Source: Candidatus Poribacteria bacterium
GTDB lineage: Bacteria; Poribacteria; WGA-4E; WGA-3G
Reading direction: 5' to 3'
NCBI GenBank assembly: GCA_958295945.1
Contig: OY282386.1
Span: 2,741,864 to 2,805,863, forward strand
DNA length: 64,000 nucleotides
The position numbers and the translations under genes are program-made. This document shows, in pieces, positions 20,781 through 56,430 of the stretch. Under the pieces are notes generated by a model, which saw only the letters and a program-made list of their open reading frames with translations, did not search any database and was not told the DNA's origin. Each line of letters begins with the position of its first letter. Within the stretch, counting starts at the first letter, position 1.

Positions 20781-20819
20781 TGAGTGGCAAAATAGTCTTA
20801 ATCGTCCATTCATGTAAGG

Positions 20820-22388: not shown

Positions 22389-22695
22389 CGGTTTTTCTCC
22401 TTATAGTTAATTTTGATGTGTGATTGAAAATAGGTCTGTTGAAAAGATGAGAACCTAAATGGCATTAAGGAATGGAATGATCAATACCAAAAAGACTACT
22501 CAATGAAACTATAGCAATTATTACTATTTTTGTCAACTATTATGTGCAAATGCCGAACTATTTAACGTGGTTTGCTAATAGGTATATGGACTTCATATTG
22601 CATTAAATCTTACTTTCGAAACCCCGGTAGGTGCCGTTTCTTAAACGCATCGTAGGCGCGCTTTGTAAGCATGCCTACGGTTTGCTCAGAAATCC
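22389..22695. other. Non-coding spacer with family B repeats
   Basis: AT-rich; the only structure seen is a double palindromic repeat at 22625-22680 (GGTAGGTGCCGTTTC and GTAGGCGCGCTTTGTAAGC). Confidence 0.55.
22625..22680. repeat. Palindromic repeats, family B, two in tandem
   Basis: CGGTAGGTGCCGTTTCTTAA followed by CGTAGGCGCGCTTTGTAAGC and a closing GCCTACGG. Sits directly beyond the WD40 gene stop. Confidence 0.7.
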
Positions 22696-24585: not shown

Positions 24586-24939
24586 TATAAATTTGTCCTT
24601 TTTTATATGTTTTTGCTTGACAGCATTGCCTATTTACTGTTACGCATATTATGGATGCACAAATTGATATGTGGTAAATAATCATTTAGGTTGGTAAGAG
24701 AGGTTATACCATTTCTAATAGAAAACTTCGCATTTTTGTAGCACAAACTTCCAGTTTGTGCTGTCCTTCAAGATATTCTTAACAAATGTTAATGGGATGA
24801 ACATTTATAGAAATGGTATTAGATGTATTTTAGAAGAGCTGGTTATGTGGATTAGGAAGGACAAACTGATATATTGCTGGAGATATTTTTTATAGGTAGG
24901 GAGAAAATGTGCCCGCGTTCCGAATTACTTCAGCAACGC
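24586..24939. other. Non-coding spacer between the two WD40 genes
   Basis: Contains the second 114-bp MITE-like element (24706-24819); the rest is AT-rich without visible genes. Confidence 0.55.
24706..24819. mobile_element. 114-bp MITE-like element, copy 2
   Basis: Same length and same terminal inverted repeats (ATACCATTTCTA / TAGAAATGGTAT) as 19659-19772, with an internal GCACAAACTTCCAGTTTGTGC hairpin. Confidence 0.85.
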
Positions 24940-26061
24940 CTAATCTGCTGAGTCAGATGTAAGATCCCAGAACAACAAGGTCCCGTCACTACTCCCGCTT
25001 ACGAGTGTCTTTCCATCTGGACTGAATACCGCTGTATAAACCAATTTTGCATGCCCTCTTAACGTTTTGAGGTGTGTACCAGTTTGCACATCCCATAAAC
25101 GTATTGTAGTGTTTCTACTTGTACTTGCGAGTGTTTTTCCATCCGGACTAAATGCAAGACTACTCACTTTCCTTGTATGCCCTTTTAGTATCTGATGCAG
25201 TGAACCTATTCGCGCGTTCCATACACGTAGGTCTGTGTCAAAGTCCATGGCAGCACTCACAAGAAATTCACCATCTGGACTAAATAGGACGTTAGTAATC
25301 CTACCCGTATGTCCTGTGATTGTACGAAAAGATTCACCTGTTTCCACATCCCACAAACGAATGGTTTTGTCCATGCTTGAACTTGCAAGTGTCTTTCCAT
25401 CTGGACTAAACGATACCCTACTCACAGCATAAGTATGTTCTGTTAGGACGTGAAGCGATGTACCGGTTGGCACATCCCACAGGCGCGCAGTAGCGTCCCA
25501 ACTTGAACTTGACAATGTAGACTCATCTGGACTGAATGCAACATAATTAACCCTATCCGTATGACCTGTCAGTGTGCGAATGATTTCACTTCTTTGCACA
25601 TCCCACAGACAGATGGCATTGTCATCCCCTGCACTTGCCAATAATGACCCACTTGGACTGAACACGACGTTATTGATACGACAGGCATGCTCTTTCAACG
25701 TATGGACATGTGTTCCGGTTAGCACATTCCAGAAACAGATGGCATTGTCCCCACCTGCACTTGCCAAAACAGACCCATCTGGACTGAAAGATGCAGTAGT
25801 GACATCAGCTGAATGTCCTGTGAGCAGTGAAAGTTCTTTAGCTGTCTGTGCATTGTATATCCAAATCCCAATTGCGCTTACTACCGCTATAAGTTTCCCA
25901 TCAGGAGCGTATGCTATTTCAGGCGGATTTAGGACATCGCTTATCCTACCTTTCCCGAGACGTGCTTTCACGCCTGTCGGTAGACACCATTGTGTGTAAT
26001 CTTGGGAAACGGAATTAGAGTCTAAAGTGTGTAATGCAAGCGAGAGTCGTGTTTTTTTCAT
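24940..26061 (-). CDS. WD40 repeat protein, 8 repeats, degenerate signal peptide
   Basis: 373 residues. It has the DYTQWCLPTGVKARLGKG start motif of its larger neighbour, then eight WD-type repeats ending IWIYN, FWNV, LWDV, LWDV, LWDV, VWNA, LWDV, FWDL. The N-terminus (MKKTRLSLALHTLDSNSVSQ) lacks the hydrophobic core of a signal peptide, although the neighbour has one, so secretion may have been lost. Its 5' 190 bp plus about 95 bp of upstream DNA are duplicated at 35396-35683. Confidence 0.87.
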   Translation of the reverse strand: MKKTRLSLALHTLDSNSVSQDYTQWCLPTGVKARLGKGRISDVLNPPEIAYAPDGKLIAVVSAIGIWIYNAQTAKELSLLTGHSADVTTASFSPDGSVLASAGGDNAICFWNVLTGTHVHTLKEHACRINNVVFSPSGSLLASAGDDNAICLWDVQRSEIIRTLTGHTDRVNYVAFSPDESTLSSSSWDATARLWDVPTGTSLHVLTEHTYAVSRVSFSPDGKTLASSSMDKTIRLWDVETGESFRTITGHTGRITNVLFSPDGEFLVSAAMDFDTDLRVWNARIGSLHQILKGHTRKVSSLAFSPDGKTLASTSRNTTIRLWDVQTGTHLKTLRGHAKLVYTAVFSPDGKTLVSGSSDGTLLFWDLTSDSAD

Positions 26062-26155
26062 TATGCTGTTTGTCCTTTAGTTGTAAATGTTCCTTCCTAT
26101 CTGATATTTTTATGAACATAGATTATCACAGACACTTGGCAGAGTCAAATAAATT
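25868..26155. repeat. Long direct repeat, copy 1 (WD40 gene 5' end and upstream)
   Basis: Aligns without gaps to 35396-35683 at a constant offset of 9528, with very few differences until about 26131 and more after. The two copies are in the same orientation and bracket the Cmr operon. Confidence 0.9.
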
Positions 26156-26171
26156 GGATGCGCTAAAAGAT

Positions 26172-26200
26172 TTGACAAAAAAGTGACGTTTTGGTAATAT
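26172..26200 (+). promoter_or_regulatory. Probable promoter of the Cmr operon
   Basis: TTGACA (26172-26177), 17 bp, TAATAT (26195-26200); a second -10-like TATAAT lies at 26206-26211. The cmr1 ATG is about 50 bp downstream with AAGG before it. Confidence 0.55.
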
Positions 26201-26258
26201 TTGTCTATAATGAATTTGCACATTCGCCCCAAACCACTATAATATTAAGGACAGCACA

Positions 26259-27152
26259 ATGGAAAAGACTGAGTTGAAACTTGAAACCGTGACACCTATG
26301 TTTCTCCGGGGTGCCGATAACAAAACTCCTGAACTTCGTCCGCCAGCATTCAAAGCACTGTTCCGTTATTGGTGGAGGACTGTGCAGGAATGTGATTGGA
26401 GATTGCTTCAGAAGACCGAGGCAGATTTGTTTGGAAGCACAGATGGTAAAGCACCATTTTCAATTCGTATTTCTGGAACAATAGATTTGGGAGATCCTAA
26501 AAAATATAGTCCGTTGCCACATAAGAACACTTTTCAGATGGACGCTTACGATGCGGGTAAATCATTTAATCTACTGCTGATTGCAAAAAATACATCAGAT
26601 GCTTCAAACTACAAACAGATTGCGAAACTCGGTTTTCTGTTGGGTGGTGTTGGCAATCGTTCACGCCGTGGGTTCGGTTCAATTCGTGAAACCAATTGGA
26701 ATTTCTCAGATGTATCCAGTTTGCGAGATGAAGTTTTGAAGACACTCAACGCTTTCTCGGAGAAAGATAGATTTCAGACTAACAACAGTTTCGCAATAAA
26801 CAAGCGAACCGTAGCAATCATTGAATTAAAACCGCACACACCTCATCCTGAGAAATATCCTGTTGTTCGGCGTGTCTTTTTGGGTAAACTAACGAATGAC
26901 GTGAACATACTCTTAAAAAACATCGGTAAGGCTACCTCTGTTGCGAAACGAAACAATAAAGATTGTACCCTCGGTGATGGTATACCGCGCATGGCATCAC
27001 CTGTTATTGTCAGCATCCAGATGGTAGGTAAACAATATTTGCCGGTTGTCACACAACTGTGGTCTCCTTATCCGAACAATCGTCCCCCTCATAATTTCCA
27101 ACAAAAGCAAGAGCAATTCATTGATGCCATCATAGGAAATTTCCATGAATAA
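26259..27152 (+). CDS. cmr1: Type III-B CRISPR RAMP protein Cmr1
   Basis: 297 residues. LETVTPMFLRGADN at the start, RPPAFKALFRYWWRTVQ and the glycine-rich loop GGVGNRSRRGFGSIRE are the typical Cmr1 features (RAMP ferredoxin-like fold). In the Cmr complex it caps the end that binds the 3' part of the crRNA and helps select targets. It opens a tightly packed operon; cas10 begins 8 bp before its stop codon. Length fits a short Cmr1. Confidence 0.93.
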   Translation: MEKTELKLETVTPMFLRGADNKTPELRPPAFKALFRYWWRTVQECDWRLLQKTEADLFGSTDGKAPFSIRISGTIDLGDPKKYSPLPHKNTFQMDAYDAGKSFNLLLIAKNTSDASNYKQIAKLGFLLGGVGNRSRRGFGSIRETNWNFSDVSSLRDEVLKTLNAFSEKDRFQTNNSFAINKRTVAIIELKPHTPHPEKYPVVRRVFLGKLTNDVNILLKNIGKATSVAKRNNKDCTLGDGIPRMASPVIVSIQMVGKQYLPVVTQLWSPYPNNRPPHNFQQKQEQFIDAIIGNFHE

Positions 27153-29022
27153 AAATAAATCGCCACGTCTTATGCTTATGTTTACAATCGGTCCCGTGCA
27201 ATCCTTCATTGAAGCTGCACGGAAGACAGAAGATATGTGGATGGGAAGTTATATTCTGTCTTATCTTATCGCTACGGCAATGGATAACATTCAAGGTGAT
27301 GGTCTTGAAATTATATATCCTGCTATTGGATCTGAATCGCCGTTTGATTTTTGGAGAGAACAAGATCCTACAACTCCATCCTTTCCGAATCTTTTTTTGG
27401 CAATTGGCGATGGCATTGAAGTTTCTCAGGATGATTTAGTCGAGCGTGCCGAAGAAGCAGAAAAAAGTGTAAATACAGAGTTTGATTCAATTGCAAAACG
27501 CGTGCTTGATAAGACATTTAGCGTGTGGCGTAATACTTACGTTGAGGAATTGTATAATCGGCAAATCCCTAATTTTTTTGATATTTATTGGGCTATTACC
27601 GAGGAAGAAACAGATCAAAAATATGGGGATTGGTATGCTCATACTGCAGGCAATCTCGCCGCAGCCAAAAACTGCCGAACATTTATGCAGACACAAGAGG
27701 TGGGTCGGAAATGTTCACTTGATGGCACACGCGAAATTCTCCACTTGCGAGAAGATGACTCTATTAAAGATGCAATGACATGGTGGGATAAATTGTCAAA
27801 AGATACTCCAAAGTATTGTCAACAAAAAGAAGCTCTCTGTGCTATTTCATTGACAAAGCGGATAGGAATGTATTTTCTTGAAAATTACTCTAAATTCAGT
27901 AAAGAATTTATGAACAGCCGTCCGAGGTTTCCATCAACTTCGGAGGTAGCTACGGCAAACTATAAGGAACAAATCTTATGTATACCTGATGCGTTAGAGG
28001 TTTATACAAAATTCTGCCATGCAGTCAGAGGTTTGCGTCAATCAGATGACGAAGATGCTAAAATTCCAACCATTCAACCTTTACCTAAAATCAAATGTCC
28101 ACTTCCGAACAATGTTGATGGTGAATGGCTATACGAAGAGACGTTAGAACCCAACTATCTTGAACGGTATTACAATGTTGATGTATTAGAAGCAGCAGTT
28201 CAAATTGAACAGTGTAAGGAATTGCGAAAAAAACTTGTTCAATTGCTTAAAGACGAACCGGGGAAATATTATGCTGCCATTGCACTTGACGCTGACAATA
28301 TGGGGGAAGTGAATCGGAACGCTGAAAGTCGAGAACAGCATGCTAAAAATAGCAAGCAGCTGATTAATTACGCAAAAACAGCGCGTCGGATTGTCGAGGA
28401 GAAACACCTTGGCAAGTTGACGTATGCCGGTGGTGACGATCTACTTGCACTTGCAAATCTGAAAGACCTTTTGTCTATTTTGAAAAAGTTGCATAGAAAA
28501 TTCCCTGATTTCACAACTATTTCTGCGGGGGTGTGCATTGCCCATAACAAAATGCCTCTTGGTGATGTGCTGCAACATGCACGACGAATGGAAAAGAAAG
28601 CTAAAATTAACAGTGGACGTGATGCGTTTGGAATTGCGTTGTTCAAACGTTCAGGAAATGTCAGTGAGATGGTGACAAAGTGGAACCGTGATGATCTTGA
28701 AGTGCTGGCTGTTGGTCAGAAATTGGCTAAGCTGCTGCAGGATGATGAAATTTCTAAACGTTTTTTATATACCTTTCGTGATGCATTTGCAAAACTAATC
28801 GGAGATGACAGAGATCTTATGATAGAATTACCTTCCGAGCTTGTTGACAAAGAATTTACACGTATCATTGAACGAGCGTATAAAACGAAAGGGCAACAAC
28901 TTGACAAAAGAAGTCAACGAACAGTCAACCAGACCTTAAAAATGTGGGTTAACTTCAACACTTTCACTGAATATATCAATTTTCTGGAAATTATTACTTT
29001 TATCTCAAGGGAGTCAAAGTGA
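27145..29022 (+). CDS. cas10: Type III-B Cas10 (Cmr2), GGDD intact, no HD domain
   Basis: 625 residues. It starts directly with the first palm-like domain (FTIGPVQSFIEAARKTEDMW, residue about 12 on), so the N-terminal HD nuclease domain of longer Cmr2 proteins is absent. The catalytic palm has LDADNMGE (Asp382, Asp384) and AGGDD (Gly429-Asp432), the active site that makes cyclic oligoadenylates on target RNA binding. A Cys-containing middle region (about 180-300) may hold the usual zinc site. With GGDD but no HD, this Cas10 should signal rather than cut DNA. It overlaps cmr3 by 4 bp. Confidence 0.94.
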   Translation: MNKNKSPRLMLMFTIGPVQSFIEAARKTEDMWMGSYILSYLIATAMDNIQGDGLEIIYPAIGSESPFDFWREQDPTTPSFPNLFLAIGDGIEVSQDDLVERAEEAEKSVNTEFDSIAKRVLDKTFSVWRNTYVEELYNRQIPNFFDIYWAITEEETDQKYGDWYAHTAGNLAAAKNCRTFMQTQEVGRKCSLDGTREILHLREDDSIKDAMTWWDKLSKDTPKYCQQKEALCAISLTKRIGMYFLENYSKFSKEFMNSRPRFPSTSEVATANYKEQILCIPDALEVYTKFCHAVRGLRQSDDEDAKIPTIQPLPKIKCPLPNNVDGEWLYEETLEPNYLERYYNVDVLEAAVQIEQCKELRKKLVQLLKDEPGKYYAAIALDADNMGEVNRNAESREQHAKNSKQLINYAKTARRIVEEKHLGKLTYAGGDDLLALANLKDLLSILKKLHRKFPDFTTISAGVCIAHNKMPLGDVLQHARRMEKKAKINSGRDAFGIALFKRSGNVSEMVTKWNRDDLEVLAVGQKLAKLLQDDEISKRFLYTFRDAFAKLIGDDRDLMIELPSELVDKEFTRIIERAYKTKGQQLDKRSQRTVNQTLKMWVNFNTFTEYINFLEIITFISRESK

Positions 29023-30182
29023 GACTATTTCTACAAGCGAATGATACCTTCTTTTTTCGTGATGGTCGCCCCTTTACAAAAGGCGATCAATCAGAAGGAT
29101 ATTCTATTTTTCCTCCCTTACCTTCAACAATACTTGGAGCGTTAAGAACTGCATATATTGCTGAACATGGTGATTTATCTGCTTTTTATGCAGGAAAAAT
29201 GGCAATGACTATAGGGACACCTGACTCACTGGGTTCTATAAGTCTCAATGGCGTTTTTCTTGCTGACAGAAATTCCACAATCTATTATCCAATTCCACTT
29301 GACCTTGTAGTAAAAAAGAAGGAAACAGATAACAGATTATACCTTCTTAAGGTAGGAACAGAATCATCTAACCTCAGTTCAAATGCTTCACTCACATACC
29401 TGTTGAAATGGTTCGGTGCTGAGGATGTTGAGTCAGAGACGAATGGGAGATTAGAAGGTATAGTTATGGCAGAGTATCTCTTGGGTGGACAGACAGAGTT
29501 TGGATTCAGACCAATTGAGGATTTTATTCGATTTGAACCCAAAATCGGTATTGAACGCGATTACCGGACATCGTCAGCTAAGGACAACATGCTGTATAGG
29601 ATTAATATGTCGCGTTTTCAATCCCAATTCCTCAAAAAAAATGAACGCAAGGCATTGTCAGATTTAGGATTTGTCGTAGATTACCAGTGCAAGATAGAAC
29701 TACCTGAAAATGGGATGCTAAAACTCGGCGGAGAAGGAAAAAGTTTCACTTATAAACAGAGTTGCTACCACACAGATCCGCTTGCTGCAGAAGAAGATAT
29801 GACAGCTCTCAAAGAAGTTATCCATTCATCAGGTTTTTTCAAACTCTATTTTGCGACGCCTGCAATCTTCGATCACGGATGGTTGCCGAAATGGATTGAC
29901 AAGACCACATACAACGCCCAATATGAATCATTGTCATTTGAGTTGATTACAGCAGCAGTTGGCAAACCGATTGCTATTGGTGGTTGGGATATGAAAAAAA
30001 ATATGCCAAAACCGACGCGTCAGGCAGTTCCTGCTGGTAGTGTCTACTATTTTAAGCTACCTGATGAAAGCTGCGTAGACGCTATCGTTGACACTTTTCA
30101 CTATAAAAACATCAGCGACTGTCAAGCAGCGGAAGGATTTGGACTCTGCTTTGTCGGTGTTTCTGAAGGAAATAGAACATGA
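29019..30182 (+). CDS. cmr3: Type III-B CRISPR RAMP protein Cmr3
   Basis: 387 residues. The N-terminus DTFFFRDGRPFTKGDQ and PPLPSTILGALRTAY are Cmr3 signatures; the C-terminus ends with a Gly-rich FGLCFVGV strand. Cmr3 sits beside Cas10 and binds the 5' tag of the crRNA. ATGA overlaps at both ends (with cas10 and with the CARF gene) show strong translational coupling. Confidence 0.93.
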   Translation: MRLFLQANDTFFFRDGRPFTKGDQSEGYSIFPPLPSTILGALRTAYIAEHGDLSAFYAGKMAMTIGTPDSLGSISLNGVFLADRNSTIYYPIPLDLVVKKKETDNRLYLLKVGTESSNLSSNASLTYLLKWFGAEDVESETNGRLEGIVMAEYLLGGQTEFGFRPIEDFIRFEPKIGIERDYRTSSAKDNMLYRINMSRFQSQFLKKNERKALSDLGFVVDYQCKIELPENGMLKLGGEGKSFTYKQSCYHTDPLAAEEDMTALKEVIHSSGFFKLYFATPAIFDHGWLPKWIDKTTYNAQYESLSFELITAAVGKPIAIGGWDMKKNMPKPTRQAVPAGSVYYFKLPDESCVDAIVDTFHYKNISDCQAAEGFGLCFVGVSEGNRT

Positions 30183-31393
30183 CAGTTGTAATCACACCAG
30201 TTGGTACATCACTTTTTACAAACGGGTCGGAAACTAATAATCAAATCCAGACTGGTTTTAGTCGTATTGAAGATAAGCCAATGTCTGAATGGGATAGCAA
30301 TACTCGATATATAAACCAGCTCAAAATTGAAAGTGAAAAATTTATTAGAGAGCAGGGCATATCTGCCTCAGCTGAACTTCAGAGTACTGCCGTAATTCGA
30401 GATAAAACTGAGGATAATATAATAGTTTATCTCCTTGCTTCAGATACGATTACCTCCCGATTAGCGGCAGAAATCTTAAGGGATCAACTTAATGATCCCA
30501 ATCATGTTTTAGGTAAAAATGTAACAGCTCACTTTGATCCTGATAACGATGTGATTGATTCTTTACAGGTTAATAACACTGTAAGTTTCTCAAGAGAAGG
30601 TATGCCAAAACTATTTCAAAGGATTAACTACATCAAAGAATGGGAAGCTGGAGGGAGTCAGAATCTTGCAATCAACATCACTGGTGGATACGGCGCAACC
30701 TTACCCTATCTGACGATTTTCGCACAACTTGAAGGTGTTCCACTTTACTATAATTTTGAAAATCAAGAAGAACTTATCACAATACCCCAGGTTCCCTTGG
30801 TAATTGACTCAAGCTTAATTGAGACTCATGCAGGCGTACTTGCAAAAATAGCCGATCACATGGATGATCCTACACGTTGGCGAGCCTTTAAAAATCAGAA
30901 TGAACAAGCCGTAAGAAAGTTGAATGCTTTTATTTGGGAAAACGACGATCTCGGTGCAGAGTTGTCACCGATGGGTAATATATTCTGGAACGACTATCTT
31001 AAAAGTCACTTCATTGTTAAGTTGCCTTCTTCCATGAACCGAGTGGCAATTGACGAGGTTATTAGAGAACTTTATGGAAGGTTAAATAATGCTTTACGTC
31101 CAAATTATCTTACCCCTGTCTCTTGCTATGAAAGGCTTAGAGTGTTAGGACACAATGACGACTTGAACCACACCGGGCAAGTTAGTGGTCAGGATATTTT
31201 CATTTTTAAATCAACTGACCACGGTCAGGTGCGATTGATGTATTCTTTCGTGGTTAATGGACAAACAATCACCCAGCTCACGATATTTGACAGCCACGGG
31301 CATATGGATAAAGAAGGGTATCGCGTTTGGAAACAAAAATTTGAAATACCACCTGAAATTAATTTTGAGACATACACGTATGATATTTCATAG
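30179..31393 (+). CDS. CARF-domain effector, C-terminus possibly RelE-like
   Basis: 404 residues. The N-terminal Rossmann-like CARF domain shows TPVGTSLFTN (residues 6-15) and the second ligand motif NITGGYGATLPYL (Asn166-Gly170), like Csx1/Csm6 and APE2256-type proteins. So it should bind a cyclic oligoadenylate made by Cas10. The usual HEPN R-x4-6-H motif is not obvious. The last 100 residues (YERLRVLGHN, DIFIFKSTDHGQVRLMYSFV around Arg352, ITQLTIFDSHGHMD) resemble the sheet and closing helix of RelE-type ribonucleases, which would make it a CARF-RelE mRNA interferase like Cami1. This second half is my inference. It lies inside the cmr operon between cmr3 and cmr4, overlapping cmr3 by 4 bp. 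Confidence 0.8.
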   Translation: MTVVITPVGTSLFTNGSETNNQIQTGFSRIEDKPMSEWDSNTRYINQLKIESEKFIREQGISASAELQSTAVIRDKTEDNIIVYLLASDTITSRLAAEILRDQLNDPNHVLGKNVTAHFDPDNDVIDSLQVNNTVSFSREGMPKLFQRINYIKEWEAGGSQNLAINITGGYGATLPYLTIFAQLEGVPLYYNFENQEELITIPQVPLVIDSSLIETHAGVLAKIADHMDDPTRWRAFKNQNEQAVRKLNAFIWENDDLGAELSPMGNIFWNDYLKSHFIVKLPSSMNRVAIDEVIRELYGRLNNALRPNYLTPVSCYERLRVLGHNDDLNHTGQVSGQDIFIFKSTDHGQVRLMYSFVVNGQTITQLTIFDSHGHMDKEGYRVWKQKFEIPPEINFETYTYDIS

Positions 31394-31422
31394 TAGAGAA
31401 TTATAACAAGGATAGAACCAAA

Positions 31423-32427
31423 ATGTTCAAACAAGCAAAACCTCTGTTTTTAATCGTAGAAACGCCGCTACATGCTGGCAGTGGAAGTGATCTCGGCATT
31501 GTTGATCTGCCGATACAACGTGAAAAACACACGGACTACCCTAAGATTGAAGCATCCGGATTGAAAGGCAGTATCCGTGAAATTTTTGATGCACAAGCAA
31601 AAAATGGAAAAGTAAAGAATGATGAAGTTTTACTCACTTTCGGTCCCGAAACGGGAGATCTCCATGCGGGTGCACTTGGATTCACCGATGCCCGTCTTTT
31701 GCTTTTCCCTGTCAAATCTGTCAAAGGTGTGTTTGCATGGGTGACATGTCCAGCAGTGTTAGAACGTTTCAAACACGACCTTTCCATATGTCAACCAACC
31801 ATTAATTTTGTTAAAAATATTCCTGATGCCAATACGGTATCGAACAATAGTGAACTCATTGTGCAAAACGAAGGAGATACTAAGAAAATTGTCCTTGAAG
31901 AATATACATTTACAGTTACACCTGACAACGAATGCGAAACTGTTGCGAAATGGATTAGCGACAATGTTTTGCCAGCCAACGTGCCAAGCTACGGTTATTG
32001 GAGAAAGAAAATGAAGAAGGACATCGTTGTGTTGAGCGATGACGATTTCCGAGATTTCGTTATGCTCTCAACCGAGGTTATCGCACGAACCAAAATCGAC
32101 AGTAACAAAGGCACCGTAGCAACAGGCGCGCTGTGGTATGAGGAATATCTTCCGACCGATTCTATTCTCTACTCGCTTGCATTGACAACACCGCTGTTTG
32201 TGGATGACACGAAGAAAAAAGGAACATGTTTTGAAATCCACAGTCCAGTATCTGACAAGAATCTTAAGGAAGCCGAAAAGGTGATGACATTCTTGGCAGA
32301 TTATTTGCCAAGTATCATTCAAATTGGAGGTAATGCTACTATCGGTAAAGGGATAGTCCGGCGACACATTTGTCAAAACGGAGGGATAAACAATGGCACA
32401 GGAACTGACGACACTCAAAACAATTGA
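31423..32427 (+). CDS. cmr4: Type III-B CRISPR RAMP protein Cmr4 (backbone, target RNA cleavage)
   Basis: 334 residues. ETPLHAGSGSDLGIVDLPIQ at the start, with Asp28 at the position of the catalytic Asp that cuts bound target RNA every 6 nt, then EASGLKGSIREIF and a C-terminal GGNATIGKGIVR loop. It polymerises along the crRNA as the Cas7-type backbone. A 29-bp gap and its own AAGGA-like RBS follow the CARF gene. It overlaps cmr5 by 35 bp. Confidence 0.94.
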   Translation: MFKQAKPLFLIVETPLHAGSGSDLGIVDLPIQREKHTDYPKIEASGLKGSIREIFDAQAKNGKVKNDEVLLTFGPETGDLHAGALGFTDARLLLFPVKSVKGVFAWVTCPAVLERFKHDLSICQPTINFVKNIPDANTVSNNSELIVQNEGDTKKIVLEEYTFTVTPDNECETVAKWISDNVLPANVPSYGYWRKKMKKDIVVLSDDDFRDFVMLSTEVIARTKIDSNKGTVATGALWYEEYLPTDSILYSLALTTPLFVDDTKKKGTCFEIHSPVSDKNLKEAEKVMTFLADYLPSIIQIGGNATIGKGIVRRHICQNGGINNGTGTDDTQNN

Positions 32428-32833
32428 GCAAGGGCGCGCCAAATACGCCTTTGAAAAGGTTAAGGGAATTAGCGGTAACAGTGAAAATGGATCGAAAAAA
32501 CTGAAAGAAAATTATAAATCCACGGCGAAGAAACTTCCCGTTCTAATAAAAACGAATGGACTGGGACAAACTTTGGCTTTTCTGAAAAGCAAAGGTGGTA
32601 AAAATACAATCAACGCCCACGACAAGTTGTATGAACATATTGGTTCCTGGCTTCAAACCGAGGATACCAAACGTTTGGTTAAGAAAGGTGAACTTGTTGA
32701 ACAGGTTATCAACCTTGAATCACAAGACTATCGACAAGTTACCGTTGAAACACTTGCACTACTCAATTGGGTGCGTCGTTTTGTTGACGGACTTATGAAA
32801 GACGTGGAAGAGACGGAGGATAATGATGCCTAA
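32393..32833 (+). CDS. cmr5: Type III-B small subunit Cmr5
   Basis: 146 residues, mainly helical. QGRAKYAFEKVKGI at the start, an AKKLPVLIKTNGLGQTLAFL core and LNWVRRFVDGLM at the end match Cmr5 (Cas11-type), which lines the target-RNA groove. Start ATG lies inside cmr4 with a GGAGG upstream; the stop overlaps cmr6 by 11 bp. Confidence 0.92.
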   Translation: MAQELTTLKTIEQGRAKYAFEKVKGISGNSENGSKKLKENYKSTAKKLPVLIKTNGLGQTLAFLKSKGGKNTINAHDKLYEHIGSWLQTEDTKRLVKKGELVEQVINLESQDYRQVTVETLALLNWVRRFVDGLMKDVEETEDNDA

Positions 32834-33920
32834 CTACCATCCTTCTGATACAAGGCAGCTTATTCGCAGCAATAATCAAATTGATAATTTTGCTTTAGGT
32901 TACCGACATTTTTTGCAGGAAGACTCAAAATCAAAGTACAAACTTAACCTGCAACGTTCTTCCTATAAACTGGAAGACTCGTCTAAGGAATTGATAAAAA
33001 TGTTGATAGACCGACAAGTAGAACAACTCTTGCAATTTGCTAAGCAAGACATCAAACTTTACAGCGTTGATGCAACGGTTGATTGGCGACTGGTCGTAGG
33101 ACTTGGCAGTGAGCATGTGCAAGAGACAAATATGACACTCCATCACATCTACGGTATTCCTTACATCCCCGGTAGTGCTGTCAAAGGTGTAGTGCGTCAT
33201 TGGTGGTTACATGAAAATGAAGATTTTATTGACAACAAAGGCAAAATTGACGAAGATAAAGCCATTAAGAATCCAGATTTTCTCGCTGTGTTTGGCAGCC
33301 AAGAACAACGCGGGAAAGTGCGATTCCTTGATGCATTTCCTCAAGATGTCAATTTTGCAACCGATATAATGAATCCCCACTATCCAGACTATTACAGTGG
33401 TAGCAAACCACCAACAGACCATCAAAATCCAATACCGATCAATTTTCTAACAATTGAAGAGACTACTTTCCGATTTGCTTTCTTAGCGAAAGATCAGAAA
33501 GCTCTTGATGAACTCAAGAATCGGTTTCATGACGTATTGGAAATGAAAGGCGTTGGTGCAAAAACATCTGTCGGATACGGGTATTTCCGAGATTTCAAAG
33601 ATCAGACTAAGGTCATCACGAATGAACTTAAACGGCAACAAGAGGCAGTTGAAGAAGAACGTGAAGCGAAACGTATAGCAAACCTTTCTCCTACAGAACA
33701 ACTTGCTGAAGAATTGAATCGTCTTAGTGAAAAACAAGTAGACGAACAACGTGCTGTCCAAATATTCAACGATGAACTTCCATCACTTGACGGTGATGAA
33801 GAACAGATGATTGCACAGTCGTTGAAGGATTATTGGCAGCGTATTAACAAATGGGATGGTGGCTCTGACAAACAGAGACAAAAAGTGATGAAAGTTAAGT
33901 CAATTTTAGGTGATCGTTGA
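32823..33920 (+). CDS. cmr6: Type III-B CRISPR RAMP protein Cmr6
   Basis: 365 residues. VGLGSEHVQETNMTLHH, then IPYIPGSAVKGVVRHWW and the Gly-rich loop GVGAKTSVGYGYF are Cmr6 hallmarks. The C-terminal tail (about 255-365) is a charged helical extension, longer than in short Cmr6 proteins. It ends the Cmr operon; the intact effector set Cmr1-6 is therefore present, but no cas1, cas2 or functional cas6 follows. ATG could be 32823 or 32826. Confidence 0.93.
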   Translation: MMPNYHPSDTRQLIRSNNQIDNFALGYRHFLQEDSKSKYKLNLQRSSYKLEDSSKELIKMLIDRQVEQLLQFAKQDIKLYSVDATVDWRLVVGLGSEHVQETNMTLHHIYGIPYIPGSAVKGVVRHWWLHENEDFIDNKGKIDEDKAIKNPDFLAVFGSQEQRGKVRFLDAFPQDVNFATDIMNPHYPDYYSGSKPPTDHQNPIPINFLTIEETTFRFAFLAKDQKALDELKNRFHDVLEMKGVGAKTSVGYGYFRDFKDQTKVITNELKRQQEAVEEEREAKRIANLSPTEQLAEELNRLSEKQVDEQRAVQIFNDELPSLDGDEEQMIAQSLKDYWQRINKWDGGSDKQRQKVMKVKSILGDR

Positions 33921-33942
33921 AAACCGAGAAAACCCTATCCCA

Positions 33943-34020
33943 TGCTCCAAAACTTCCGCTTCGCACGTGACCGCTTCACCTACACCGTCCAAGAATCGCT
34001 GAAGATGCCAACCTTCAAAA
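33943..34020 (+). pseudogene. cas6: Truncated cas6 start, copy 1
   Basis: ATG CTC CAA AAC begins the peptide MLQNFRFARDRFTYTVQES, LKMPTFK, which matches the start of the second fragment at 35192 nearly residue for residue. After Lys26 the frame runs into unrelated DNA carrying the Uma2 promoter and stops at 34074. It starts 23 bp after cmr6, so it marks the original position of cas6 in this operon. Confidence 0.75.
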
Positions 34021-34033
34021 ACAGAAAAGACTC

Positions 34034-34061
34034 TTGACAACAATTTCAAAAATAATATACA
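34034..34061 (+). promoter_or_regulatory. Promoter-like segment upstream of the Uma2 gene (direct-repeat copy 1)
   Basis: TTGACA (34034-34039), 16 bp, TATACA (34056-34061). The segment TTGACAACAATTTCAAAAAT recurs at 34980-34999, directly after the Uma2 gene. Confidence 0.6.
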
Positions 34062-34109
34062 CTACTACCAATGATATTGTGTGAATTGGGATATAAGAAT
34101 CCAATACTT

Positions 34110-34146
34110 GTTGCAAGTGAGGCTTCTCGTTTGAAGGGAATTGATG
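34110..34146 (+). repeat. Possible degenerate CRISPR repeat, copy 1
   Basis: GTTGCAAGTGAGGCTTCTCG followed by TTTGAAGGGAATTGATG. It aligns to 35114-35148. The CTTCCCGTTTGAAGGGAA hairpin word and GGAATTGA end resemble CRISPR repeats. Single units without spacers, so a relic at best. Confidence 0.4.
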
Positions 34147-34150
34147 TGCT

Positions 34151-34924
34151 ATGGAGAAAACAATGGACTACGTCAACGACTTTGAATACAGACGAAATAA
34201 ATATCTGCCCATCTTCCCCAAAGCAACTGGGCAACCGACCGTTTATATTGAAGGCTATCCATTTGAGGATGATGAACCTATGGCAGCGACCTTGTATCAC
34301 GCTGAACAGATTTCAACCTTTCATGAACAACTCAAACGTTATTTTATTTCGGCACCTTTCATCTTTATAGGTCTTGACTGTTTTATCTACTATAGTGAAG
34401 GTGATCTGAAAAAATGTGTTGCCCCTGATATATTTGTGGTGTTGGGTACAAAGAAATATCCACTGAGACGAAGTTTTTATACGTGGGCTGAAGGTGCTGT
34501 GCCCGATACTATATTTGAGTTTCTATCGGATAGCACGATAAATGAGGATAGGGATAGAAAAGTTCAGTTATATTTAGGTGAGATGGGGGCAAAAGAATAC
34601 TTTATACATCAACCTGATTTGGATAGAGCTGCGGAGTTTAGAGGCTGGTATCGTGACACTTCCGGCGAAATCGTTGAGATGTTAACAGAAACACCAAGAA
34701 CATTGTTTAGTGAGAGATTAAATCTATTGTTCAAATGGCAGGAAGAAGGGGATTTGAAAGTCCGTCTGCTCCGTCCATACCTACCGGATGGAACACCAAT
34801 AACGACATCTATAGAAGAAAAGAACCTACGCGAAATTGCTGAAGCAAAGGTTGAAGAACAAGCAGAAAAGATTAAAGAACAGGAAGCGGAATTAGAAAGA
34901 CTACGTCAACAACTTGCTAAATGA
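34151..34924 (+). CDS. Uma2-family (DUF820) putative endonuclease
   Basis: 257 residues from ATG 34151 (34163 also possible). PD-(D/E)XK-like core: VAPDIFVVLG, PDTIFEFLSDST and DRDRKVQLYLGEMGAKEYF, the standard Uma2 arrangement. The C-terminal 50 residues (EAKVEEQAEKIKEQEAELER) form a coiled coil. Uma2 proteins are abundant in cyanobacteria and some other phyla; their function is unsettled, though a nuclease fold is clear. It sits between two identical promoter-bearing segments inside the broken cas6 region, suggesting it arrived by insertion or duplication. Confidence 0.87.
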   Translation: MEKTMDYVNDFEYRRNKYLPIFPKATGQPTVYIEGYPFEDDEPMAATLYHAEQISTFHEQLKRYFISAPFIFIGLDCFIYYSEGDLKKCVAPDIFVVLGTKKYPLRRSFYTWAEGAVPDTIFEFLSDSTINEDRDRKVQLYLGEMGAKEYFIHQPDLDRAAEFRGWYRDTSGEIVEMLTETPRTLFSERLNLLFKWQEEGDLKVRLLRPYLPDGTPITTSIEEKNLREIAEAKVEEQAEKIKEQEAELERLRQQLAK

Positions 34925-35191
34925 TTACCAACGAAATCTTTGGCAACCGCGATCCAAGCAGAAACCACAGAAAAACTTATTGACAACAATTTCAAAAATA
35001 ATATATACTAACCAAAGTTGCTACCTTAAATCGGGGTTTCAAACCCCTCTAACAATGATCAGTATATTTTTATGCAATTTATCCCTTACTGTGACTGGCT
35101 TCGCAAGGGGTGCGTTCGAATGAGACTTCCCGTTTGAAGGGAATTCACGACTATAGGGTTGGGAGACCCAACCCCTACGATACGTTTGATA
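34925..35191. other. Non-coding region with duplicated promoter and small palindromes
   Basis: Holds the second TTGACAACAATTTCAAAAAT copy (34980-34999), a CGGGGTTTCAAACCCCTC palindrome (35031-35049), the second CRISPR-repeat-like unit (35114-35148) and a GGGTTGGGAGACCCAACCCC palindrome (35156-35175). Confidence 0.6.
35114..35148 (+). repeat. Possible degenerate CRISPR repeat, copy 2
   Basis: GTTCGAATGAGACTTCCCG followed by TTTGAAGGGAATTCAC. The stem TTCCC/GGGAA with a 7-base loop is like that of many CRISPR repeats. The partner is 34110-34146. Confidence 0.4.
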
Positions 35192-35395
35192 ATGCTCCAA
35201 AACTTCCGCTTCACCCGCTACCGCCTCACCTACACCGTTCAAGAACCGCTAAAGATGCCATCTTACAAAGGCAACATCTTCCGCGGACGATTCGGATACC
35301 TGCTCCGCCACATCGCCTGCATCGGTGAAGCAGGACAGTGTGAAAAAAAGTGTCAATACCCCGACCGATGCGTCTACTCTAAGTGCTTTGAAACA
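35192..35395 (+). pseudogene. cas6: Truncated cas6 (type III-associated), copy 2
   Basis: From ATG 35192: MLQNFRFTRYRLTYTVQEPL, then KMPSYKGNIFRGRFGYLLRH, a Cys-rich segment with four Cys (CIGEAGQCEKKCQYPDRC) and KCFETP. This is the N-terminal 68 residues of the Cas6 family that processes pre-crRNA in type III systems (PxxKGxxxRGxFGxxLR, C...C...C, FETP). At 35396 the frame passes into antisense WD40-gene sequence and stops at 35527, so the catalytic C-terminal half is lost. Confidence 0.85.
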
Positions 35396-35683
35396 CCAAT
35401 TGCGCTTACTACTGCTATAAGTTTTCCATCAGGGGAGTATGCTATTTCAGGCGGATTTAGGACATCGCTTATCCTACCTTTCCCGAGACGTGCTTTCACG
35501 CCTGTCGGTAGACACCATTGTGTGTAATCTTGGGAAACGGGATTAGAGTCTAAAGTGTGTAATGCAAGCGAGAGTCGTGTTTTTTTCATTATGCTGTTTG
35601 TCCTTTAGTTGTAAATGTTCCTTCCTATCTGATATTTTTATGAACATAGATTATCACAGGAGCTTGGTGGTGTCAAATGAATT
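35396..35683. repeat. Long direct repeat, copy 2 (WD40 gene 5' fragment)
   Basis: Duplicate of 25868-26155. On the minus strand it encodes the first 62 or so residues of the shorter WD40 protein (35589 downward) before running into cas6 sequence. The DNA between 35684 and 35905 has a family A palindrome and no gene. Confidence 0.9.
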
Positions 35684-35764
35684 GAAACCCAAATTTAAGT
35701 TGACTGATTACTCAAATTATGGTGTGATTATAGTAGATTTTAGAATTACTTGGCCACATTTGAT

Positions 35765-35829
35765 CTGTAGGGGACCTCCGATCCTGACCGTTCCGGAGGT
35801 CCATCGAAATTCGGAGATCGATCCTACAG
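35765..35829. repeat. Palindromic intergenic repeat, family A copy 3
   Basis: CTGTAGGGGACCTCCGATC and ATTCGGAGATCGATCCTACAG arms; relates to 5190, 6498 and 56157 copies. Confidence 0.7.
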
Positions 35830-35905
35830 TGGCGTATCCAAGTATTTTCATATTTCACCACAAATATCAAATTGGAAAATCAAGATTTATCATAGGACTT
35901 ACACA

Positions 35906-36066
35906 ATGATTAACCCCGTTCTTAAATGGGCATTACAAATTTTACAAAATCCCGAAGAAATACCTACAAACGACTTGATATCCGATAAAATAAAAGAAGC
36001 ACTAAAACTTGCAGGTATTGAATATAATCAGATTCAAGTAAATTGTCAACCCCTTGAATCCATCTG
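35906..36066 (+). pseudogene. Start of a small unknown gene interrupted by the insertion sequence
   Basis: From ATG 35906 the frame reads MINPVLKWALQILQNPEEIP and a KIKEALKLAGIEYN helix, plausible protein sequence of unknown family. At 36067 it enters the terminal repeat of the insertion sequence; the frame's last 32 codons are element DNA. No clear continuation is seen beyond 37674. Whether it was ever expressed is uncertain. Confidence 0.35.
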
Positions 36067-36102
36067 GGTGTGTAAAGTTTTTGTCACTAAAACATCATGC
36101 GG

Positions 36103-37630
36103 CTATTGTGTCTGGATACCAGTATTTTCCCAAGTTTTGTTCTTTATCGGACATCTCAACTGAAGGATAGCATTAAGCCCTTCATCTGTCCATCTCATAG
36201 ATGCGCGTCTACACCTTTGTGCCACAACCTGTTGGCAGGGCACTCTCAATCACGCTACTGGTAATCTGATACCCTTTTTCTCTAAATGTTTTGGACTGCG
36301 GACGCTTGGCATGTTTTTGAAAATAGTCTGCTTCTCTTTCAAAGTTTTTTCTCTCTTCAGGATTTTCTGTCTCAAGCGCGCGGATGTGCGATACCACTTC
36401 AGGGATCCTCCCCTCAAAAAGAAGCGGTTCCACCTTTTGTGTCCACGCCTCTACCTTTTCAGTCGCAGGCTCTCCAAATGCATATTTTGCAGCAGCGTCC
36501 AGATGCGATTTTGCGTGCATATAATCCACAATCTCAACCGCATTCGGAAAGGACTCATCCGAGTTGTTCCATATCCATGGAGCACCATCACCGATAGACA
36601 CAACTTCTTGCTTCATAATATCTTCTTGATAGATACCGCTACGGGTCGCTAACGCATATAAATCCTTCCCAGATTGAGCGGCATTCTGACGATTGGCAGT
36701 CCAACGAGGACTTTCAGGACGCGCTCTGGAAGGACTATTCGGTCCCAGTTGTGGATAATCTCTATAAGGACAACTGACTTTTGTTTCCTTCCACCCCTCT
36801 GGTGAGTTCGTCCGACATCCATCTGTGCTCACATACCACCGCTCATTGGCACCAAGGGTTTGACATTCCACTCGTTCCAACACACGCAAATCTTTTGACC
36901 ATTCACGCACTTTCTTATGAACGGTCTTGTGGCTCACTATAACTCCCTGACGAGATAACTCCTCAGCGGCACTCCTAAAGTCAAAGTGCGCCGCAAAACG
37001 ACACATCATTTCCGCAACACGATGCGTGTATTTACCTTTCAACTGCTGCTTCGTATCCCACCAAGGTCTATGGTAGTGTTTCGCATCACAATGATACACC
37101 CAACGCCGCAACACGAATAACACCACAGAGAGTCGTCCTCTGTCGTTCTCTCGGACGCCACGAACGCCACGCTTTTTCACACTTTGGACACGACACCGGT
37201 TCCGTCTCTTTTGCCGAAGCTTGCTCGGACGCATGCAACTCTAACAACTTTTGTCCTAAGGCACAATGAAGATTAAGAAATAAATTGGGTAATTTGATTT
37301 CAAAGCCCAGCGCGCTTACAAAGCACCAAATCAACGGTATGAATACCTTTTGGCATTCCCCGCCTACGGGGTTTGAGGTGATTAAGATTACCCGTTTAAT
37401 AAATTAATCTTCATAGTGCCTTCTAAAATATGTTGTTCTGCTTCAGAAAACGACAGAGAAGAATCACTGCCAAGATCTCCAACTAAATCGTGCATCTCGT
37501 CCACTAAGTTCTGTGCTGCTTCCGGATTTTCTTTGACTTCACAACTTGATAATGATATACTAAACATTGGTATCCTCTCTGATAAAAAAGGTATTTTAAG
37601 AAGGATACCATTTTTCTTAATACCAAGCAA
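36103..37630 (-). pseudogene. ISKra4-family transposase, frameshifted and interrupted
   Basis: Read from 37630 down: an N-terminal part (EAEQHILEG), broken by the nested MITE, resumes as ALGQKLLELHASEQ and a zinc-finger-like CPKCEKAW, then shifts frame near 37104-37115 (GVIRV / RRWVYHC). The main part (36209-37234 frame) has STDGCRTNSPEGWKE, VSIGDGAPWIWN, DYMHAKSHLD and SVIESA. A second frameshift from an extra G in a run at 36238-36240 separates it from QQVVAQRCRRASMRWTDEGL, the family's usual end, closing at 36103. Three independent lesions, so it is dead. The family call rests on the IGDGAPWIW, H-SHL and RWT-EG motifs. Confidence 0.85.
37258..37422. mobile_element. 165-bp MITE nested in the transposase gene
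   Basis: Terminal inverted repeats AAGGCACAATGAAGATTAA and TTAATCTTCATAGTGCCTT; the arms continue imperfectly to GGGTAAT/ATTACCC. The interior has CAGCGCGCTTACAAAGCACC and the hairpin word ACCTTTTGGCATTCCCC. TAA on both outer sides may be a target duplication. The interior recurs at 51981-52088. Confidence 0.8.
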
Positions 37631-37945
37631 GATCTGTATTCAGTTCATTATAGTGACAAAAACTTTACACACCTTGAGATGTTTTCTGACTTGTAGAAAA
37701 ATCTGTACTGTGCTAATATATTAATGTATAAGTTGGTTGGTGCATATATCCAATTGTACTGATCAACAAATGATAGGTTATTGGACAATCGGGAATCCAA
37801 TATTTTATTACATTCTTAATTAATTAGGGTATCAGTGTTAATTTTGCACTTTTGCACAATTAGCAGTGAAGGGGTGTATCGGAATGCCCTACTGATTACT
37901 GTGAATCGGATTGCGTCAATCGCGATTTGCATGGTGTGATTATAT

Positions 37946-40900
37946 ATGAATATGTTAGAAGATATTATTCGGCTCTGCCATGAACGGCATGGGGAAAGAG
38001 AGTCGTTACGTCAACGTAAAACGGTGGTGACTCCTGCCTTGTTTAAACGTCCCCCGTTTCACATCAAGGTGCATTGTTCGCGTGCGAATGCCTTAACGCT
38101 TGATGCGCTTGAGAGTGCGGATATTTCCTTTATGCCGATAGGACATGCATCTGAAAATGATCAAGTGCCGCTGGATTGTGGGGGAGAACGGTTTTTAAAG
38201 CGTCAGCGAGGGAGAAGCTGGCGAATGAGACAGTGGAATGACTCTTGGGGTATTCAGATATATACCGGCATTCCATCTGGGCGGGATGGTGCGCATTGGC
38301 ACGACATAGAGTTTAAATATGATGCGATCTGTAGTGCGCCTGATGCTGTTTCTTCCTGTTTAGAAACGCTTCTGAACGCTCATGCTAATCCCTTGTTGAC
38401 GTTGACAAAATCAGGTGGACTTCGCTTCTCTTGTCGTGTTCAGGAATATTTACATTCCAATACTGATGAGGATCGATTTTTTATTTTTAAGGACCAACCA
38501 ACGGAAGATGCCCCTAACCGTCGTGTTGTCTACTTGGAAGTTCTTGGTGAGGAAGGTTATAGTCAATGGGATTTGCGGTATGAGATTCTGCTGGGTAATT
38601 TGTTGGAACCGCCTGTTATTTCCAAAGAAGTACTATTTGTCTCCATACATCAACTCCGTGAGGCATTTGACGAAATTGAGTTACGCCAAGCAGAGATTTC
38701 AGAAACTGAGGATGTGGTTCTGCCCTCTTTTGGTTCAACACATCTTGATCTTGCCAAAGCAGCGTTTTTGAAGCGCGGTTATTCTTATCTGCGGGTAGAT
38801 GATGGTTGTCATCATTGGAAACTTCATGATGAAAACGGTACTGTCAAGTACGTATCGTTATGGGAGGATCAGGGGATTGTATGGGTACGCGCAACAACAC
38901 TACATACAGATATACCTACGCGTGCTGTTGCGATAACAGATATATGGGACGATACAGGCATTTCACCCCCGAATCTTGTAAGCAAAAAAGTATTGTTAAT
39001 TCGTAAGGGTGATTTAAGTCCGTTGACAATAAAACGTCCAACACCAAAACTGTACAAACAGCAGACAGTCTCCAAGCACTATAAATCAATTCAGGAACAG
39101 ACATCGGTGTTGAAAGAGGTCTTGACACGCGATACGCGCATTCTTGCACTCATAACTACCGAAGATGGTATCTTCAGGAACACCGAAGCAGAAACACATT
39201 TGTTAAATAACCGTGCGACATTTTTGAATATAGCCAGTCGTGTATATGCGGATGCGGCAGCAGAACGATATGCGACAAAGAATCTGTCCTCCGTGGCGCG
39301 TTGGCGATCCATATTTTACCGTTGGGACCAGGTTAAAGATATACCGATAGAAGACCGCATGGCAAACCCCTTCCAACACGGTAATGTGTGTGAGGACACT
39401 GAACGAATCATGGCATTTATGAACAAGGGTGGTAATCCGAGGGAATCTATCTGTCCAAGTTGTCCCGTTTATACGGCATGCCAAGAACGGGGGTATTTAT
39501 CACAACCGCAAGCGATGAAAAGTGCCAACGCACAGATATCACCAGTTAGTAAACTGTTTTTTGAGCCGAGACATGCCCACTTGATACAACACATATTAGA
39601 AAATGTAGATGAAGAACGTATCTGTATCATTGATGAACATAGATCAAAGATTGCAGACCTGTTTTTTGAATGTGTATTAACCAAAGAAGTTTTAGAGCAA
39701 TGGATTGCCACCTGGAAGGGATATGCCTTGGGTAACTTTGCAGTTGCCATTATGAATGCCCTTGAAACGCAAGTGGTTCCCTCGAGAAATCCTATCAGAC
39801 AGGTTCGATCTGCCGTTGAAGCCTTCAAACAATACGCAGATCAGATAATTGAGCAGATGTGTTACATTAATGTACAGGGTCGAGTGGTGGCGCATAAAAC
39901 AGTTGATCCCGATACAGGATCAGAATTGTCCCGCTTGGCAATTGCCATAAAAAATATTGATGGTCAAAATGCCTCGACTGCGTACATTCCGTTGGATGCA
40001 GATGCAAAGGATAGACTGCACGCCATCGGGTTGCCTACTATATCCCCACAAGACTATACGACAAACGAGGATATTTCTATACCGATGCAGATGACGGAAG
40101 CGGTTAGAATAGGTGTACTTGATGTCCGGACTATAGAAAGCATCGCGTTATTTCCCACCGTCTGTTCGGATCCTGAGTGGACGTATTGGCATCAGTTGAC
40201 ACGTTTTTTTGAACATTACCCGCGCGATGCTGATGCCCCGATGCGGTGGAATGATAGATTTCTGAAGTTTTGGTTGCCACCGAGGCTTCATCCGGGCATC
40301 AAACGTCTGCTGATAATTTCACCATTCCTTACCGAGGGGCAACTTCGCCGTGCGTTCCCGTCCGAAGATATGGATGTTATTCGTGTTGAACCGACAACGT
40401 GGCTGCCTGACAACAGAGTCTTTCAAATCCGTTCAAGTAGCAGAACTCTCAATGAAATAATAAACAACAATAGTCATACAAACAGAGTGGAGTTGTCTAA
40501 AATAGGAGAACGTTATATTCGGGGTATCCGTGCAGAAATTGAAAGAGACCTCAGTATAAGACATGCGATTTTTGCAAATTACCAAACTGTCGATAAATTA
40601 TTGGATATGACAGAAATGCCAAATGTCCATTTTATCCGGAGTTTCAAATCATTGTTCTATAACGATATAGATATTGATTCAGTCCAGGTGTTTTGGATAG
40701 TCGGTACACCGAAATGGAGACAAGGCGCCATTTGGCAACAAGCTCAAATGTTGTTCGGGAACGACGTTAAACCGCTTGAATATGGTGAAGATATGTGGGT
40801 GGATGACAGTGAAGATGAACGGATACAAGAGGTCTATCATCAAAATATCTCAGGCTTACTGACACTGATTGTTGGACGCGTAGGTATGAACAGATGCAGT

Positions 40901-41362
40901 GGTAAGACGGTGGTATTGTTGAATAGCTTTGACCTACCGGACATAACTGATAGACCGGAAACGTTGCTTTTTGACTGGGAAGATTTTGAGATTGCAGGTG
41001 GATTAGATAAACTTGAGGAGACGATTCGGATACGCGAACGTTTTGAAGCAGAACGTGAAAATCTCAATGCAGACACCCCGCGAAAAGAGGTGGAACGCGT
41101 TTTAGGATGTTCTACAAGGCAAGCGAATCGTGTGTTGAATAAACTGCGTGGCGGCAACATCCCACGGGTCAGTTTCAGAGAACAGATTCTGTTTTTGTTA
41201 TCTTCTGGACCCGAGAAAACAACAGCATCGTTGGTTGCTGCAATTGACAGCAGTCCTCAAGCGATAGGCAATGAGTTGAAACGTCTTTTGGATGCGGGGG
41301 AAATTGTTCGCGTGCGGCGCGGGGTTTATACCCTTCCACCAGATAATCACCAGGCCCGGTAG
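37946..41362 (+). CDS. Large protein of unknown function with Cys quartet and C-terminal winged helices
   Basis: 1138 residues; I do not recognise it. Visible are a TKSGGLRFSC segment (Thr154 on) reminiscent of the 'SGG' substrate loop in some primase-polymerases; four Cys as C482-x20-C503-x2-C506-x5-C512, a spacing like the [4Fe-4S] site of AddB/Cas4-type proteins and some helicases; a hydrophobic strand ending IIDEH (Asp563-His565) like a DExH box; and two winged-helix-like units at about 1040-1130 (ERVLGCSTRQANRVLNKL and AIGNELKRLLDAGEIVRVRR). No convincing Walker A is present. It stands alone next to the IS and the CRISPR locus. A DNA or RNA-processing role is a guess. Confidence 0.75.
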   Translation: MNMLEDIIRLCHERHGERESLRQRKTVVTPALFKRPPFHIKVHCSRANALTLDALESADISFMPIGHASENDQVPLDCGGERFLKRQRGRSWRMRQWNDSWGIQIYTGIPSGRDGAHWHDIEFKYDAICSAPDAVSSCLETLLNAHANPLLTLTKSGGLRFSCRVQEYLHSNTDEDRFFIFKDQPTEDAPNRRVVYLEVLGEEGYSQWDLRYEILLGNLLEPPVISKEVLFVSIHQLREAFDEIELRQAEISETEDVVLPSFGSTHLDLAKAAFLKRGYSYLRVDDGCHHWKLHDENGTVKYVSLWEDQGIVWVRATTLHTDIPTRAVAITDIWDDTGISPPNLVSKKVLLIRKGDLSPLTIKRPTPKLYKQQTVSKHYKSIQEQTSVLKEVLTRDTRILALITTEDGIFRNTEAETHLLNNRATFLNIASRVYADAAAERYATKNLSSVARWRSIFYRWDQVKDIPIEDRMANPFQHGNVCEDTERIMAFMNKGGNPRESICPSCPVYTACQERGYLSQPQAMKSANAQISPVSKLFFEPRHAHLIQHILENVDEERICIIDEHRSKIADLFFECVLTKEVLEQWIATWKGYALGNFAVAIMNALETQVVPSRNPIRQVRSAVEAFKQYADQIIEQMCYINVQGRVVAHKTVDPDTGSELSRLAIAIKNIDGQNASTAYIPLDADAKDRLHAIGLPTISPQDYTTNEDISIPMQMTEAVRIGVLDVRTIESIALFPTVCSDPEWTYWHQLTRFFEHYPRDADAPMRWNDRFLKFWLPPRLHPGIKRLLIISPFLTEGQLRRAFPSEDMDVIRVEPTTWLPDNRVFQIRSSSRTLNEIINNNSHTNRVELSKIGERYIRGIRAEIERDLSIRHAIFANYQTVDKLLDMTEMPNVHFIRSFKSLFYNDIDIDSVQVFWIVGTPKWRQGAIWQQAQMLFGNDVKPLEYGEDMWVDDSEDERIQEVYHQNISGLLTLIVGRVGMNRCSGKTVVLLNSFDLPDITDRPETLLFDWEDFEIAGGLDKLEETIRIRERFEAERENLNADTPRKEVERVLGCSTRQANRVLNKLRGGNIPRVSFREQILFLLSSGPEKTTASLVAAIDSSPQAIGNELKRLLDAGEIVRVRRGVYTLPPDNHQAR

Positions 41363-41440
41363 GTTCGGTTTCCTAACCGAACTGGATTCACCCCCGTGTC
41401 GGTAGGTTCGGTTAGGAAACTGCACTTACAGGTTGGGAAA
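41357..41440. repeat. Palindromic repeats, family B
   Basis: CGGTAGGTTCGGTTTCCTAA plus CCGAAC, then a second inverted half GGTAGGTTCGGTTAGGAAAC. It fills the gap between two convergent genes and overlaps the last codons of the upstream one. Confidence 0.75.
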
Positions 41441-56329: not shown

Positions 56330-56430
56330 CGGTAGGTGCGGTTTCCTAACCGCACCGGATTTGTGTCAGACACCTTTCATAATAGGTCTTATCACAGGTT
56401 TCAGTACGGTTAGGAAACCGCATCTACCGC
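56330..56430. repeat. Inverted pair of family B palindromes
   Basis: Each arm is itself palindromic (GCGGTTTCCTAACCGC and ACGGTTAGGAAACCG), and the two arms face each other across about 46 bp. Confidence 0.7.

Follow-up and report, generated by a model that had tools for sequence, protein, structure and literature searches.

A Poribacteria-specific, multi-copy protein family of likely mobile-element primase-helicase origin with a mostly lost motor site

The 1138-residue protein encoded in the window (the whole 64,000-nucleotide stretch of Poribacteria DNA analysed here) very likely belongs to a Poribacteria-specific, multi-copy family that originated from a mobile-element archaeo-eukaryotic primase (AEP) combined with a P-loop helicase carrying a four-cysteine cluster and with helix-turn-helix (HTH) domains. 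The complete explanation, in which the protein is a domesticated and mostly motor-dead primase-helicase that still binds DNA and acts on the replication of mobile DNA, is considered probable. If true, a long-lived family whose primase and helicase sites were repeatedly lost under strong selection would give prokaryotes a clear example of pseudoenzymes recruited from the replication machinery. No description of the family was found in the literature searched, which was a limited library. The gene is an uninterrupted open reading frame (ORF) with an ATG start and 1138 codons; its features and surroundings are listed in Table 1.

Table 1. Positions, in window coordinates, of the gene, its domains and motifs, and neighbouring features
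Feature	Position	Strand	Basis or remark
1138-aa gene: degenerate AEP primase + P-loop helicase + HTH/winged HTH (predicted)	37946..41362	+	sequence/profile comparison
AEP primase-polymerase domain, aa ~25-243 (predicted)	38018..38674	+	AF2 model, Foldseek 1ro0, VIA 1rni, BFVD
AEP motif I, W118-H119-D120-I-E122 (DhE)	38297..38311	+	D120 in 65/67 copies; E/D at 122 in 38/67
AEP motif II TKSGGLRF, aa 154-161; R160 at the canonical His position	38405..38428	+	R160 and F161 in 67/67
AEP motif III acid E198	38537..38539	+	E in 56/67; assigned by sequence and strand order only
Erased Walker A, aa 399-415, ILALITTEDGIFRNTEA	39140..39190	+	GxGK[ST] in 15/67 copies; intact in P0001-P0004
Cys cluster C482, C503, C506, C512	39389..39481	+	61/61 copies with the segment
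Helicase motif II remnant CIIDEH, aa 560-565	39623..39640	+	aligns with DEPN/DEVN/DEAD of intact relatives; DE in 25/67
Second RecA-like helicase region, aa 746-1040	40181..41065	+	motif-VI-like GRVGMNR and family signature FDWEDFEIAGGLDKL
HTH aa 1041-1075 and winged HTH aa 1076-1132	41066..41341	+	Pfam, fold match
Type III-B cmr operon: three RAMP proteins, Cas10/Cmr2, Cmr3, Cmr5, Cas_APE2256 protein	26259..33920		upstream of the gene
Degenerate insertion sequence (IS), 26-nt inverted ends, 272 bp upstream of the gene	36067..37673	-	context, outside the system
REP-like palindromic repeat GGTAGGTTCGGTTTCCTAACCGAAC	41358..41432 (41358-41382, 41406-41432)	.	first bases are the stop codon of the window copy

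The N-terminal 259 residues were modelled together with 44 relatives (AF2; pLDDT 81.5, pTM 0.81), and the model shows that the first ~240 residues are predicted to fold as an AEP primase-polymerase. The pRN1 ORF904 primase-polymerase was the best PDB match by Foldseek (1ro0, E 5e-4) and was also matched by VIA (1rni, Z 9.6, 169 aligned residues, 3.4 Å); it was followed in the PDB ranking by the primase-polymerase of phage NrS-1 and then mainly by other AEP enzymes, and phage primase-polymerases in BFVD also matched the domain (E 4e-8). The original prediction had proposed structure prediction as a check, and for this part of the protein it thus yields a recognisable fold. A fold search with the full-length model returned the winged HTH (wHTH) only (residues 1075-1131, Z ~10), which, with the Pfam AbiEi_4 match (25.5 bits, cut-off 25), bears out the winged helices predicted at the C-terminus. 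Pfam, NCBIfam and PHROG gave no match outside the HTH parts, and nothing matched in a sequence search of the PDB.

AEP enzymes are characterised by the motifs hhhDhD/E, sxH and hD/E, the first and third of which accept D or E (PMC5862659). The corresponding motifs of the family are W-H-D-h-[D/E/H/N...], SGGLR and L-E198. The TKSGG sequence, which had been singled out as a loop and lies at residues 154-158, is accordingly AEP motif II, in which Arg has replaced His. In the window copy, motif I (D120-I-E122) and motif III (L-E198, by sequence and strand order only) conform to the pattern, whereas sxH is absent, Arg being at the His position in 67/67 copies. The Arg is common to the intact relatives described below, P0002 included, and motif II varies among AEP families (PMC5862659); therefore, the substitution argues against ordinary catalysis more than against AEP ancestry. 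The pRN1 ORF904 enzyme, from the Prim-Pol clade of AEP, has a similar N-terminal fold and a motif I of the same D-x-E kind; however, no sequence match to it was found, it has the motif II His that the family has replaced, and its helicase is of the SF3 type (PMC8718748), while the window family has a different P-loop motor type.

The full triad of AEP acids is kept in 28/67 copies, including the window copy (D120, E122, E198), so that catalysis may matter and the window copy might still make or extend short primers. The 67 long ORFs include close orthologues and their membership was set by what the searches fetched; the counts therefore describe this sample. One alternative is that the protein is an active primase-polymerase with a dead helicase half, which would act on single-stranded DNA, by priming or extension, in repair, in damage tolerance, or in interference with incoming DNA. 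The intact triad of the window copy is consistent with this, as are the tolerance of motifs I and III for D or E (PMC5862659), the use of one Glu and two Asp by the pRN1 enzyme (PMC4434180), and the Ppol of the Thermus thermophilus element ICETh2, a mobile-element primase-polymerase that limits the uptake of environmental DNA (PMC7693054). However, the triad is incomplete in most copies, and many well-selected ones have H, N, Y, V, Q or A at position 122; such losses suggest that activity is not what the whole family is kept for. The motif II Arg also speaks against activity, although the intact relatives have it as well. Overall, this alternative appears rather unlikely.

The ancestry of the rest of the protein was revealed by a family-profile search, which found P0001 (918 aa, genome G040); P0001 then led to P0002, P0003 and P0004. 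These four proteins, encoded within the Poribacteria family to which the window's relatives belong, have a Walker A motif (PAQTGKT, GAGGGKS or AAGTGKT), the Cys cluster, a motif II (DEPN, DEVN or DEAD) and a Q-x3-R motif VI. The family profile aligns with them over 794 columns (Prob 100, E 1.2e-41), and this comparison shows the remainder of the window protein to descend from a P-loop helicase of the intact primase-helicase type. P0001 has a BT4734-like AEP domain. Three loci of the intact set resemble integrated mobile elements, with neighbours named by eye: a tyrosine recombinase (G003:C33), ParA, a recombinase and a Rep-like protein (G040:C61), and a Rep-like initiator (G033:C56). None of the four intact proteins was found in the window's genome. 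In a separate observation, locus L105 (1-3117, G070:C37) encodes a Toprim/DUF3854-type protein with a like motor plan (Walker A, Cys, DEPN) beside a tyrosine integrase; here another primase type is joined to a similar helicase.

Compared with a working motor, the window copy lacks Walker A, as the original prediction had observed; the motif is erased, with ILALITTEDGIFRNTEA at the cognate position, and motif II is reduced to DEH. The predicted 'DEH box' is thus present at residues 563-565; however, it does not hold as a box, since DE survives in only 25/67 copies, and it is what remains of helicase motif II. The inferred role in nucleic-acid processing agrees with an ancestry in nucleic-acid enzymes, and this ancestry, AEP primase plus P-loop helicase, is recognisable although no known family had been thought visible. 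Mobile primases of the PrimPol-PV1 supergroup, All3500 and others, likewise combine primase, helicase and a C-terminal winged helix and are of mobile-element origin, and one group of mobile-element AEP primases has remote SF2-like helicases, a likeness to the window family (PMC5862659). In contrast to these, the Poribacteria genes are chromosomal, multi-copy and lone, and have mostly lost the ATPase site.

The Cys spacing C-x20-C-x2-C-x5-C is exactly as predicted, and the quartet, whose lack of conservation was to count against the prediction, is invariant in the 61 copies that hold the segment. The family has five Cys, the second of which is I488 in the window clade; its loss there fits C482, C503, C506 and C512 as ligands. 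As in the XPD/DinG Fe-S helicases, the cluster lies between Walker A and motif II and ends in CPxYxxC, the motif order agrees, and the intact relatives have a Q-x3-R motif VI; hhalign against a DinG of the same phylum was not significant (Prob <1%). Its position and spacing make an Fe-S cluster plausible, although at the sequence level this would be indistinguishable from a Zn site.

Among the 67 long ORFs, Walker A is GxGK[ST] in 15, GK alone in 8 and lost in 40, and the segment is absent from 4. At least four to five changes of Walker A state are forced on the tree, so that the site appears to have been lost more than once. Pairwise identity has a median of 63% in the AEP domain, 76% in the Cys segment and 62-66% in the HTH domains vs 38% in RecA1. 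That the DNA-binding and Cys parts were kept while the motor site decayed suggests recruitment to a new job. One could suppose that the job is transcription regulation, for which only the C-terminal HTH domains would matter and the rest would act as a sensor, possibly of redox state through the Cys cluster. The conservation of the HTH, the AbiEi/ArsR-like wHTH and the retention of the Cys cluster without a motor would suit such a regulator, but the AEP domain is conserved to the same degree as the HTH, and one relative (L046, 905 aa) is entirely without the HTH part; this role is therefore improbable.

The relatives are under purifying selection. For related pairs, dN/dS is at most 0.35, with a median of 0.17; the median is also 0.17 in the 58 pairs whose members share neither a full AEP triad nor a full Walker A, values that are not independent because pairs of one orthologous group are counted many times. 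A decaying remnant of integrated mobile elements, without present function, would account for the erased motor site, for the in-frame stop in about one tenth of the copies listed, and for the fact that the other family copies of the host genome are IS-broken fragments. It is nevertheless very improbable, since all 1138 codons of the window copy are open, the four Cys are invariant, dN is 0.24 vs a near-saturated dS of 1.38 against the relative L004, and dN/dS stays within the above limit across related pairs.

The protein had been called an orphan; however, a search with the protein gave relatives in 48 of 97 genomes, many of those compared being draft metagenome-assembled genomes, and all lie in two genera (g1, g2) of one Poribacteria family (f1). 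The 43 loci found in GTDB contigs were all from Poribacteria, and in a phylum-wide profile search every strong match was in the same family, with at most 16 per genome among the matches listed. Genomes often have 5-16 matches, copy numbers that are approximate because split genes yield several matches each. No family match was found in the phages, plasmids and viral contigs searched. A genome of another family (G068) gave a short, wHTH-only match inside a different, phage-like protein.

The genes occur singly and in tandem (L009 and L042 are tandem groups), and copies within one genome are ~50% identical. Several orthologous groups occupy fixed chromosomal sites as lone genes amid ordinary genes in several genomes. 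At one site, in four genomes (G014, G009, G002, G010), the neighbours of the gene resemble an oxygenase (268 aa) on one side and an acyl-CoA synthetase on the other (names by eye), except that G002 has a different right-hand neighbour; in the window's genome and in G016 this site is empty, the gene being absent from a gap of ~95 bp. A selfish element made up of one gene and spreading itself from site to site would be in keeping with the many copies per genome, the tandem groups and the empty sites, but it is hardly credible, as the flanks of unrelated sites share no terminal repeat, the copies are old and inherited at fixed sites, and no nuclease or integrase domain was recognised.

Under the preferred reading, that of a domesticated primase-helicase, the host-recruited protein would now bind DNA without translocating. 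The wHTH would set it at particular duplex sites, with the AEP groove and the Cys domain gripping single-stranded or primed DNA; the bound protein would then block or tune how related mobile replicons, or the chromosome at the bound sites, are replicated. This mechanism is put forward tentatively. By analogy with the Thermus Ppol mentioned above, the likeliest use would be to regulate mobile replicons or to interfere with them. It is rather doubtful that the motor-dead paralogues of these sponge-symbiont Poribacteria, with up to about 16 matches per genome, form a large repertoire that either regulates the replication of related mobile DNA or serves as an innate layer against it, the Cys cluster and primase groove being reused purely as a DNA grip. 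The HTH region evolves slowly (dN/dS 0.11), without the diversification that an arms-race binder might show, which speaks against a role in blocking mobile DNA. The proposal makes two questions testable: whether mobile DNA is regulated or blocked by domesticated primase-helicases of this kind, and whether a helicase Cys cluster has a motor-independent role.

The gene had been predicted to adjoin a CRISPR locus and an IS in an accessory setting. The cmr operon and the IS do lie upstream, but no CRISPR array was seen in window positions 19500-36500, and small ORFs lie between the cmr operon or the IS and the gene. Nor is the setting a family trait: the neighbourhood of homologues, a further check proposed with the prediction, showed cmr genes at none of the other loci compared, neighbours unrelated between groups, and no gene family recurring beside all copies. 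A CRISPR partnership was therefore rejected. CRISPR-associated Prim-Pols (CAPP; PMC8211822) belong to the same AEP superfamily, and P0001, which is related in its helicase part, matches the CRISPR-associated PrimPol model and BT4734-like_N; unlike CAPP, the Poribacteria family has no tie to cas genes. An AbiEi antitoxin of an AbiE system was likewise rejected, only 23-44 generic wHTH residues being matched and a constant neighbour, such as an AbiEii partner would be, being absent.

Five near-identical copies of the IS are present in the host genome (loci concerned: window 36067-37673 and, on G000:C1, 4423882-4424866, 5079910-5081064, 2334456-2335908 and 3174154-3175991). Broken family genes enclose two of the five, and a third precedes the intact copy by 272 bp. 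Recombination between IS copies may have split one gene into the two broken pieces. Related copies of the REP-like repeat occur at window positions 56331-56428 and, in another genome (L044), right after the stop codon of a relative. Downstream of the cmr operon, a Uma2 gene is flanked by short duplicated segments (33942-34064 and 34954-35269; 86% over 78 nt and 81% over 57 nt), and upstream of the operon, two WD40-repeat proteins with 126-nt periodic repeats are encoded at 22696-26061.
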